Source of the DNA: a virus
Length of the DNA stretch: 21,908 nucleotides
Reading direction: 5' to 3' (one strand)
IMG/VR virus record: IMGVR_UViG_3300025168_000771
Location: 1 to 21,908 of that record
A program made the position numbers and the translations under genes. Below the pieces are notes generated by a model. It did no database searches and had not been told where the DNA came from. It saw only the letters and a list, made by a program, of their open reading frames with translations. Within the stretch, counting starts at the first letter, position 1. Every line of letters starts with the position of its first letter. This document shows, in pieces, positions 1,949 to 21,148 of this stretch.

Positions 1949-1978
1949 AAAAAAAAAGGCAGCTTTAAGCCACCTTTT
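1949..1978 (-). terminator. Rho-independent terminator between ejection genes and tail fibre
   Basis: Read on the minus strand, a stem GGTGGC / GCTGCC (two G-T wobbles, loop TTAAA) is flanked by AAAA on the 5' side and followed by nine T residues. The T tract corresponds to A 1949-1957. This is a standard intrinsic terminator for leftward transcription. It lies between the last ejection gene and the tail-fibre start, so it should reduce or separate fibre expression. Confidence 0.75.
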
Positions 1979-2001: not shown

Positions 2002-2045
2002 TTGGTAATTGTATATTAATAATTAGTTTATTCGGTCTAAGATGT
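2002..2045 (-). promoter_or_regulatory. Possible leftward promoter upstream of tail fibre
   Basis: On the minus strand a perfect TTGACA lies just after the end of the preceding gene. About 18 bases further is AATTAT as a poor -10, and a separate TACAAT lies further on without its own -35. The terminator at 1949-1978 is downstream of this site, so a transcript starting here would have to read through it. The -10 match is weak and the region is very AT-rich, so chance is a real alternative. Confidence 0.3.
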
Positions 2046-2051
2046 CAAAAA

Positions 2052-18524: not shown

Positions 18525-18725
18525 TTATCCTAGTAATGACGGTTTATAAGAATCTTCGTCTTTGTTTTGCAATCCACTGTTTGATGTCAGTATAGTTGCT
18601 TTTTTGCCACGTCTTTTTCGTTGTGCATCAGGGTTTTCATCTGGCACAGATCCGATTGGTGTTAATGGAATAACCGTTTTTGTTGTAGTCGGCATATTCA
18701 TTTTGGGGCTTAATATTCTACTCAT
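18525..18725 (-). CDS. 66-aa small phage protein, ILT/KPSLL type, paralogue of the 68-aa gene
   Basis: It begins MSRILSPKMNMPTTT, has a basic block (AQRKRRGKK), then ATILTSNSGLQNKDEDS and ends YKPSLLG. Organisation matches the 68-aa protein at 17527-17733. It overlaps the terminase stop by ATGA, with AGGA upstream in the terminase C-terminal codons. The RGKKATILTS block plus KTLLG-like end is a known arrangement of small podovirus proteins next to terminase or portal genes, of unknown function. A role at the connector or packaging vertex would fit its location but is inference. Confidence 0.8.
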   Translation of the reverse strand: MSRILSPKMNMPTTTKTVIPLTPIGSVPDENPDAQRKRRGKKATILTSNSGLQNKDEDSYKPSLLG

Positions 18726-20002
18726 TGTATTCCTAACGGGTTGTAGTTATTGTCAGCAAATTGTTGTGGTATTTGCTCTTCGTTTTTTAATTCTTGCAAG
18801 CCAACAGCCAATGTTCTCATGCTATCTGCTGCGTGTGAACTCCAGTCATGTACGGGCTTTGCATTAAAGGTTTGCAAGGTGTCATTAAACTTACGGTGAT
18901 AGTTCCTCAAGGCATCTAACAGTTTCTTACAACTATCCATATCTATCCAGCATCTATTGAGTAACAACTGCGTATAGTGCAACCCATCCTCTATGCTCAG
19001 TTTTGGTACTATCTTAAATCGTAAACCAAGTTCGTATGCAATCTCACGTCTTGATTTTCCATTTGTAAACTCACGTTGTTCCAGGTCGTGAGGCCCATAA
19101 TGATCCTTGTAAACGTAATCTTTCTTGTTAATCACACTGATGTAGTGTGGCAGTCCTTCATTACTGTTTTCGTAATAATCTATAATTTGTATTGATCTTC
19201 CAACTTGTTGAAAAAATATAATCGTTGTTTTGTCTGATATTCCTATATCCCAGGCCGTTGATACGGGGTAGGTAGCATCATAAGGTACACGGCCTACTTG
19301 TCCTTTTTGTTCTATTTTTTCTATGACATCTCCGTATATGGCACCTTCTATTGAAGCAACCCAATCACATTCAAACTCTTGCCTGTACTTTTTTTGCCCC
19401 ATCAAATCTAGGGCTGCATCTAGTTCTTCCTGATCGACAATGCCAGTCTCAGATGCTTTAGCAATTTTTGTGTACCAGGTCTTATCTTTGAGTCCGTGCT
19501 GGTACTTAGCATAGAAATCATTGCTCATACCTTGTGGTGTTCCCACAAAGTAACAGAAACCTTTTCGGTCAGATAATGCTGGTCGAATTATTTCAGGAAA
19601 TAATCTTGGATTGACCTGTGCATACTCATCAACAATGATTCCATCATAATAATTACCCCTCAAGCTGTCTGGATTTTCAGATCCAAGAAGTGTAATTTTG
19701 GCACCCGTTGGAAACAAACAACTAAGTTCTTGTTCGTTAAACTTCGTTCCAGGTATGACACCAGCATAGTATTTTAAATAGTCAAATATAATTGACTTTG
19801 TTTGTTTATAAGTTGGGCCGATGTATGCGTACCGTGGGTTCCACATGGTGTTTGTTAAAGCACGTTTTATTAGCTCGTTTATACACAATACAGACTTGCC
19901 AGCTCGTCTATGTATAGATAGTACGGCCCATCTGTATTTAGCTAAGTTTGTGTGTATCTCTTGTTGCAGCTCTCTTGGGCTGTAAGGAATAGTTATTTCC
20001 AT
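18722..20002 (-). CDS. terL: Terminase large subunit
   Basis: 426 aa ATPase-nuclease that packages DNA. ATPase domain: Walker A-like HRRAGKS (residues 31-37), Walker B IIVDE (122-126), coupling motif VGTPQG (153-158). Nuclease domain: acidic STAWDIG (D252), a second acidic candidate in KDHYGPHD (D306), and HDWSSHAADSMR near the end (D386, D393). All expected catalytic positions are present and the length is normal for the compact terminases of podo- and siphoviruses. The start shares TAATG with the upstream 60-aa gene, so translation is coupled; the stop overlaps the 66-aa gene by ATGA. The motor docks on the portal, encoded about 1.2 kb further on. Confidence 0.96.
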   Translation of the reverse strand: MEITIPYSPRELQQEIHTNLAKYRWAVLSIHRRAGKSVLCINELIKRALTNTMWNPRYAYIGPTYKQTKSIIFDYLKYYAGVIPGTKFNEQELSCLFPTGAKITLLGSENPDSLRGNYYDGIIVDEYAQVNPRLFPEIIRPALSDRKGFCYFVGTPQGMSNDFYAKYQHGLKDKTWYTKIAKASETGIVDQEELDAALDLMGQKKYRQEFECDWVASIEGAIYGDVIEKIEQKGQVGRVPYDATYPVSTAWDIGISDKTTIIFFQQVGRSIQIIDYYENSNEGLPHYISVINKKDYVYKDHYGPHDLEQREFTNGKSRREIAYELGLRFKIVPKLSIEDGLHYTQLLLNRCWIDMDSCKKLLDALRNYHRKFNDTLQTFNAKPVHDWSSHAADSMRTLAVGLQELKNEEQIPQQFADNNYNPLGIQ

Positions 20003-20320: not shown

Positions 20321-20776
20321 CTAGGCTTGTTTATTCTCCAGGGTTGCTTGATTGCTCTGATCTCCATCATGCGTACACGAGGCCGTGTCCGTATGCGTTG
20401 AGCTGGGGACTTCCCATTTAATAGTCAATGAACTATCACCTTTGTTAGTCACTGTAGTTTTATCACCATACAGACCTATCAGTTTACTAGCTAAGAACCT
20501 AATATGGTGCAGCTTCTCTCTTACAATCTGCATTGATTGAGGTGGTATATCTTCTCTATCTAATATCTCTTGAGCTTTGTCTAGCCATGTTTGAGCTGAG
20601 CATCTTCTACCCATTTCAATCTGATTGGTAAATTCTTCATCTTCTCTCATCCAACGATATACAGTAGTCAATGAAGGCATTCCATCCATGCTGCATATTT
20701 TAGTCAATGGTTTGCCAATTTGCAGCTCTTCTATGATCTTGTCACTGATTGCAGTAGTTAACTTTAATTTCTTCAT
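20321..20776 (-). CDS. terS: Terminase small subunit
   Basis: 151 aa. Residues about 5-50 form a helix-turn-helix DNA-binding domain: KIIEELQIGKPLTKICSMDGMPSLTTVYRWMREDEEFTNQ. This is the typical start of Sf6 gp1-type small terminases, followed by the oligomerisation helices (RRCSAQTWLDKAQEIL, and SMQIVREKLHHIRFLASKLIGLYGDK) and a polar disordered tail. The protein binds the packaging site and regulates the large subunit. ATG 20776 lies inside the last 35 bases of the preceding 80-aa gene in another frame. Its 3' part is visibly richer in G+C than the rest of the operon. Confidence 0.88.
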   Translation of the reverse strand: MKKLKLTTAISDKIIEELQIGKPLTKICSMDGMPSLTTVYRWMREDEEFTNQIEMGRRCSAQTWLDKAQEILDREDIPPQSMQIVREKLHHIRFLASKLIGLYGDKTTVTNKGDSSLTIKWEVPSSTHTDTASCTHDGDQSNQATLENKQA

Positions 20777-20984: not shown

Positions 20985-20992
20985 TGTTTATT

Positions 20993-21010
20993 AAATCAAC
21001 ACAATGATTT
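20993..21010. promoter_or_regulatory. Inverted repeat over the leftward transcription start
   Basis: AAATCA-N6-TGATTT, perfect 6-base arms, just downstream of the leftward -10 box and before the first late gene. It would overlap the start of transcription, so it could be an operator or a 5' hairpin in the leader. AT-rich palindromes can arise by chance here. Confidence 0.4.
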
Positions 21011-21013
21011 GCA

Positions 21014-21022
21014 ATTATATCA
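21014..21022 (-). promoter_or_regulatory. Leftward late promoter, extended -10 type
   Basis: Read on the minus strand: TGATATAAT, a perfect TATAAT preceded by TG one base away. The position 17 bases upstream (CCCGAA) is not a -35 match, as is common when an extended -10 is present. It lies 30 bases before the first gene of the leftward operon, so host sigma-70-type polymerase could start the terminase-capsid transcript here. Confidence 0.6.
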
Positions 21023-21075
21023 AGATTTAAAGCTTATTCGGGGCAAAATGTCCAATATTTTTTTTTATTATGCTA

Positions 21076-21103
21076 TTGACATATATTATATTATGACCAT
21101 AGT
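21076..21103 (+). promoter_or_regulatory. Rightward promoter with perfect -35
   Basis: TTGACA at 21076-21081, then a 16-base AT spacer and CATAGT at 21098-21103 as -10 (4 of 6). Other -10-like hexamers (TATATT, TATTAT) lie closer to the -35. It is the only promoter candidate for the rightward genes starting at 21149. The proposed -10 lies inside a palindrome, suggesting repression. Confidence 0.55.
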
Positions 21104-21126
21104 GGTCAATATGATCTATGAGATCA
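21094..21126. promoter_or_regulatory. Paired operator-like palindromes TGAYC-N5-GRTCA
   Basis: Site 1: TGACC-ATAGT-GGTCA, 21094-21108 (perfect arms). Site 2: TGATC-TATGA-GATCA, 21112-21126 (perfect arms). Both have 5-base arms, 5-base spacer and the same outer TGA/TCA bases; their centres are 18 bases apart. Site 1 overlaps the proposed rightward -10 and site 2 the expected start of the transcript. This is the expected form of a double binding site for a dimeric repressor. Confidence 0.6.
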
Positions 21127-21148
21127 AAACATTAATAAAGGAAAAATT

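Follow-up and report, generated by a model that had tools for sequence, protein, structure and literature searches.

The window, by which we mean the whole virus contig of 21,908 bases analysed here, carries the late half of a pelagiphage of the HTVC010P type (proposed Ubiqueviridae). Its leftward genes, with terminase, portal, capsid and virion structural proteins among them, follow the HTVC010P-type order in a homologous and syntenic late module, and the large terminase subunit is 59–62% identical to those of HTVC035P, Lederberg, Greip, HTVC010P and Skadi. Terminase identity and late gene order together therefore place the window with the Ubiqueviridae and not with relatives of T7. The initial annotation had viewed the locus against the background of a T7 relative, a frame that is not supported, in view of the terminase similarity and of the reported absence of a phage RNA polymerase from Skadi, a member of the HTVC010P-type group (PMC10504331). 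The RNA polymerase profile PF00940 matched none of four relatives, and the control likewise remained without a match. A control region of 164 bases (20985–21148) separates the leftward 80-aa gene from the rightward small genes (Table 1).

Table 1. Positions of genes and regulatory elements in the window
Feature	Position	Strand	Remarks
Second late promoter copy, TTTGACATCTTAGACCGAATAA-N14-TACAAT	2008..2049	-	upstream of tail-fibre-like gene
Terminase large subunit	18722..20002	-	used for placing the phage
Terminase small subunit	20321..20776	-	phrog_1482, 6e-21
First gene of leftward late operon, 80 aa	20742..20984	-	Cys/His-rich, HGG motif
Late promoter element, TTGGACATTTTGCCCCGAATAA-N14-TATAAT with extended TG	21014..21055	-	conserved where the 80-aa gene of relatives is 61–100% identical
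TTGACA, -35-like hexamer of rightward promoter	21076..21081	+
Putative operator palindrome 1, TGACCATAGTGGTCA, TGACC-ATAGT-GGTCA	21094..21108	.	arms invariant; spacer TAAAA in relatives
ATA linker between putative operators	21109..21111	.	found again, with the 18-bp register, 5' of the G001/G002 recombination (nuclease) operon
Putative operator palindrome 2, TGATCTATGAGATCA, TGATC-TATGA-GATCA	21112..21126	.
First rightward small gene, 100 aa	21149..21451	+	other small genes in its place in relatives

Results

Two palindromes overlie the rightward promoter

Both palindromes claimed in the initial annotation are present, and exact TGAYC-N5-GRTCA occurs in the 21,908 bases at these two places of the control region and nowhere else; the reversed pattern, used as a control across the window, gave no match. 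Their separation had been described as 18 bases, which is right as a start-to-start distance but not as a gap, as only the 3-bp ATA linker lies between them. When the sequence of the control region was shuffled with dinucleotide composition preserved (n = 20,000), at least one exact site arose in 8 shuffles and two sites in none, and nowhere else in the window do two like 5-N5-5 dyads lie within 60 bp of each other. Allowing up to two mismatches raises the count in the window to 35 sites, against a shuffle mean of 23; therefore the exact sites alone stand out, and weak matches mean little. A Dam-type GATC as the point of the motif was ruled out, one of the palindromes having GACC/GGTC instead.

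The TTGACA hexamer that had been assigned to a rightward promoter was likewise found. Its −10 is uncertain: the point 16–18 bp past TTGACA is an operator spacer, which is variable among relatives, and the A/T-rich TATTAT (21089–21094) just 5' of the first palindrome is an equally good candidate. The palindromes cover the rightward promoter, as the earlier view had it, with this uncertainty as to the −10.

A separate predicted promoter for the leftward late genes

The left-facing extended −10 of the initial annotation was recovered as TGATATAAT at 21022–21014. The late promoter there lacks a consensus −35 and has instead a conserved block that spans about −30 to −52, for which reason we consider it probably a promoter of the host RNA polymerase that depends on an activator. 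The signature common to this element and to the second copy, upstream of the tail-fibre-like gene, TTKGACAT-NTT-N3-CCGAATAA-N14-TAYAAT, is found also in G001, G003 and G004. Taken singly, the terminase-operon copy is kept with 0–4 mismatches in G001, G002, G003, G004, L094, L096 and L098, and the tail-fibre copy is the same in G001 and G004 and has one mismatch in G003. As the search pattern was derived from the two window copies, their own zero mismatches follow by construction; mononucleotide-shuffled windows gave 0.2 matches at up to six mismatches. Among the loci of isolates, the best matches had 5 mismatches in Lederberg and 6 in HTVC035P and Skadi-10, with none in Greip.

The left-facing late −10 lies about 75 bp from the palindromes, which cover the rightward promoter only. 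Of the repressor-controlled early/late switch that had been proposed, repressor control is supported by the regulator and integrase genes of G001 and G002 described below, but the early/late part, taken strictly, is not supported, the late promoter being separate from the palindromes and its −10 that far off. Between the second late promoter and the start of the tail-fibre gene, we also noticed a terminator-like hairpin, AGGTGGC/GCTGCCT followed by a T run (1949–1975, minus strand), as if transcription there needs antitermination.

Arms of the palindromes are conserved in close relatives

Loci of relatives were fetched by terminase (80 loci) and by the 80-aa gene (45 loci), and those with an 80-aa gene at least 81% identical were taken as close relatives, excluding L015, which ends before the control region. 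Conservation of the palindromes, a check proposed with the initial annotation, was seen in all nine scorable close contigs (L010, L011, L013, L014, L090, L091, L092, L093 and L207). These palindromes are represented by seven distinct sequences, in which none of the 20 arm columns varies, against six of 10 in the spacers (Fisher P 3.5e-4); the linker is invariant in its three columns, the flanks vary in 14 of 128, and the comparison of arms with flanks alone is not significant (P 0.22). The first rightward gene has been swapped among relatives, encoding 100, 54 or 75 aa, while the palindromes persist unchanged; on this ground we reject the suggestion that one of the rightward small proteins binds them. 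Most of the distant relatives lack the exact consensus at the control region; L099 retains one exact copy.

The sites recur at other promoters of relatives

G001 is the nearest long relative (35,476 bases, or 35.5 kb), about 95–98% identical to the window in long aligned blocks and 88% identical across the control region. It has four exact sites: two at the control region, one beside attP and one placed 17 bases ahead of the gene start of a 73-aa HTH protein. All four fall inside four regulatory regions, namely attP-integrase, the nuclease upstream region, the gap between two regulator genes and the control region, which together make up 904 of the 35,476 bases (2.5%) and whose limits were drawn from gene starts, yet after sites had been noticed there (P 4e-7 under these limits). 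At up to one mismatch, 8 of 12 sites are inside these regions (P 8e-11) and 4 of 12 elsewhere, and at up to two mismatches 15 of 66 are inside (P 1e-10). Many equal matches scattered in coding regions, which the initial annotation had named as evidence to the contrary, are thus not what G001 displays, with four of four exact sites in regulatory regions. G002 has the same pattern of sites, and in both genomes the nuclease promoter again carries a tandem pair with the ATA linker, the second site being degenerate.

A dyad search used GC-containing half-sites with gaps in four promoter regions per locus, for 13 loci with 100 shuffles each. In G001 and G002 the top dyad was TGATC-N5-GATCA or the equivalent GATCT-N3-AGATC, scoring above 100 of 100 shuffles in each. 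L098 and L094 also scored above all shuffles, but with other half-sites, and there about 30 bases are common to the cro and nuclease regions, so that the significance is inflated; the score of L053 was reached by one of 100 shuffles. Eight of the 13 loci had no shared dyad above chance, and the network is therefore not recoverable in more distant clades. Operators common to several early promoters are accordingly found in G001, by site counts, and in G002, by the dyad search. One exact site of G001 (6148; L129 6116–6162) is 8 bases from the tRNA-Glu attP core, and the repressor may act at the attachment site too.

Candidate regulators encoded in relatives

The initial annotation allowed for a regulator gene beyond the edge of the window and proposed looking there for an integrase as well; both are present in the near relatives G001 and G002. 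Divergent genes for CI-like and Cro-like HTH proteins are found in G001, G002, L188, L190, L191 and L193; the window ends before this region. For the Cro-like protein (73 aa), each of the 15 members examined matches HTH_3, and a further match is to phrog_35, a transcriptional repressor family (2.5e-6). The predicted structure of the Cro-like protein has five helices (pLDDT 91.7) and a fold nearest YdaS, HigA, P22 Cro and TP901-1 CI, with restriction-modification control (C) proteins also among the matches and no structural match at E < 0.1. The CI-like protein, 226 aa, matches HTH_3 in two of seven members. In its AlphaFold model (mean pLDDT 80), the C-terminal domain has the LexA/lambda-CI fold: it aligned with a fragment of lambda CI at a VIA-align Z of 9.1 over 119 residues and with LexA too, Hfq-like entries scored lower (Z about 6), and the best Foldseek match of the protein was a lambda-186 hybrid repressor (E 1.4e-4). 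Pfam S24, looked for as a mark of RecA-stimulated autocleavage by a catalytic Ser/Lys pair, remained unmatched at E up to 10 in the seven members. By HMM, a small HTH gene also stands beside the nuclease gene in Skadi-10 and Lederberg. In G001 the Cro-like gene is followed by a gene resembling C5 cytosine methylases (L093 5791–6642), which is missing at that place in G002.

When recognition helices of the Cro-like proteins were set against operator sequences at 23 loci (L131, a reverse-strand locus, being the same contig as L090), TGAYC sites were enriched in the regulatory regions of loci where the helix reads (P/A)T(S/T)VTRW (L129, L188, L190, L191, L193, L099 and L131). TRACC-N5-GGTYA was enriched instead in G004, whose helix is SATSVARW, and TGACA-N5-TGTCA in L094, whose helix is SPRSVFRW. 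Among these relatives, the operator class thus follows the recognition helix of Cro. The loci L194–L200, a sister group of close relatives, keep the Cro-like protein at 90–93% with the (P/A)T(S/T)VTRW helix and keep the integrase; the CI-like gene is absent, and no TGAYC-type operator is found between nuclease and cro. In the four of them that cover the region upstream of integrase (L194, L195, L199 and L200), the tRNA-like attP core is gone and one or two sites remain there. G003 (L099), for its part, has no CI-like gene beside cro and has kept operators. From G003 and the L194 group it follows that neither regulator alone tracks the sites perfectly.

Integrase and attachment site

An integrase (PF00589) was found in 7 of 7 relatives tested and in 14 of 14 controls. 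Before the integrase gene of G001 and G002, and also of G004, a 24-base core equals the 3' end of the SAR11 tRNA-Glu(TTC) gene. The exact 25-mer is present in 47 GTDB stretches, 45 of them titled Pelagibacteraceae or Pelagibacterales; no phage gene adjoined attB at these 47 loci at E 1e-5, and at E 10 only chance-level hits appeared among the matches listed. Relatives of the terminase (52–58%) occur in 6 of 397 Pelagibacterales genomes, and the six stretches gave no match to Cro-like or CI-like HMMs; their regulators therefore differ. One of the genomes, G086 (L221, contig 1, at about 267 kb), has a terminase-related prophage inside a 399-kb contig, with its integrase next to tRNA-Met and different regulators. 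Among 53 genomes of one SAR11 family, searches run without a positive control gave no terminase or integrase match.

HTVC010P and Greip are exclusively lytic according to PMC8163748; PMC11094077 has many HTVC010P-type phages carrying an integrase, cites the SAR11 prophage PNP1 and describes these phages as temperate, as the window's phage would also be in our reading. Temperate members of the group are thus already known, and it is the operator network that our analysis adds; the genes and sites of its relatives would fit temperate growth of the window's phage.

Discussion

Our preferred reading, which we consider probable, is of the two palindromes as operators in tandem for a lambdoid repressor pair of the CI/Cro type. 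This pair would be encoded outside the window and would repress the rightward early operon. The sites themselves, their conserved arms, their recurrence in relatives, the genes and attP are observed; the protein that binds the sites, the sign of the regulation and temperate growth of this phage we infer. In the lysogenic state, the operators of the control region would be occupied by the CI-like repressor (226 aa in relatives), and so would the equivalent sites at the recombination operon, at the divergent cro promoter and at integrase/attP. With the start region covered in this way, RNA polymerase would be blocked at the rightward early promoter, and the small-gene operon, the recombination operon and cro would all be kept shut by tandem operators over the transcription start. 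During lytic growth or after induction, the Cro-like protein (73 aa) would compete for the sites of the CI-like protein and take them over. The leftward late genes, meanwhile, would be served by the separate promoter for host RNA polymerase, fired by a putative activator. Lambda CI and Cro share operators, and that the CI-like and Cro-like proteins do the same would be the simplest reading of the imperfect tracking of the sites by either regulator.

Let us assume, however, that the Cro-like XRE protein alone is the ligand, as a cooperative autoregulator in the manner of C proteins and with no lysogenic role in this phage. The Cro-like gene is indeed more widespread than the close CI-like gene, G003 keeps operators with no CI-like gene beside cro, the predicted Cro-like fold matches C proteins too, and the tandem 18-bp register is one that we take to resemble that of C-protein operators. 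Such a scenario would leave the L194 group puzzling, where the same recognition helix goes together with the loss of operators from the nuclease-cro region; the C5 methylase gene that follows cro in G001 and not in G002 does not amount to a stable restriction-modification cassette; and an integrase is present in every one of the seven records tested. We therefore regard a Cro-like protein acting alone as rather unlikely, though it is the strongest of the alternatives. Considerably less probable is that an activator or a host protein, of the LexA type for example, binds the sites and switches the rightward operon on, since the sites of the window and of the cro promoter coincide with the likely −10 or follow it, as is typical of repression, and since they cluster at phage promoters and accompany the phage's own HTH genes.

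A structural role of the palindromes, as a packaging or cos site, a replication origin or a transcript hairpin, could be suggested by the location of the region just upstream of the terminase genes, including that for the small subunit, and by a conserved GGGGC block nearby. However, the dyad is met again kilobases away, at the promoters of nuclease, cro and integrase, and its spacers are free to change; the GGGGC block is explained as part of the late promoter, since it recurs before the tail-fibre gene at the same distance from a −10. A packaging or origin element was rejected on the recurrence of the motif at other promoters, and we hold any structural role to be very improbable. Chance palindromes in A/T-rich DNA, to which the modest excess of loose matches over the shuffle mean might be thought to point, are already refuted by the conservation of the arms, and the double exact site that no shuffle reproduced and the distribution over promoters leave that explanation next to no probability.

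Read as operators of a CI/Cro-type pair, the sites invite comparison with the immunity region of lambda and P22. As in these phages, the HTH genes for the CI-like and Cro-like proteins of the relatives diverge from each other; operators occupy the gap between the two genes and recur at further early promoters; the palindromic operators come in pairs; and the integrase is accompanied by a tRNA attP. They differ in that the operators here are 15-bp dyads 18 bp apart, in that the CI-like C-terminal domain has no Pfam S24 match, and in gene order, since ci has the recombination operon as its neighbour and the small-gene operon adjoins the terminase genes at a distance of about 4.5 kb. The CI of bacteriophage 186, which is among the structural matches of the CI-like protein, likewise joins an HTH to a CI/LexA-like C-terminal domain; sequence identity is 8–16%. 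With HTVC010P-type pelagiphages the window shares the early/late layout in addition to terminase and late gene order, whereas in the isolates HTVC035P, Lederberg, Greip and Skadi-10 neither a late-promoter block nor an operator pair of this kind was seen in the intergenic region that corresponds to the control region. In the accessible portions of the literature searched on pelagiphages, SAR11 phages and Ubiqueviridae, we found no description of the operator network or of the late promoter.

The L194 group is possibly a natural virulent-type derivative that has lost repressor, operators and attachment site. Extending this thought, we tentatively suggest, while holding it somewhat more doubtful than not, that the Ubiqueviridae, usually regarded as lytic, derive from phages using a lambdoid CI/Cro network and activator-dependent late promoters, or interbreed with such phages, and that lytic lineages lose the CI gene, operators and attP core together, as in that group. 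If true, one of the most abundant phage families of the ocean would hold a natural record of how temperate phages turn virulent. In PMC10504331, PMC8163748 and PMC11094077, the timing of HTVC010P-type gene expression without a phage RNA polymerase and the extent of lysogeny among SAR11 phages are left open. The parts described here lend themselves to testing: a 33-bp operator pair, two regulator candidates, a tRNA-Glu attP/attB pair and a late-promoter sequence that each genome has twice. In metagenomes, the presence or absence of these parts could also help to separate temperate members from virulent ones. Eleven relatives from another clade (L106–L116) carry TGATCCAAAGGATCA in the same position each time, about 325 bp upstream of the 80-aa gene.
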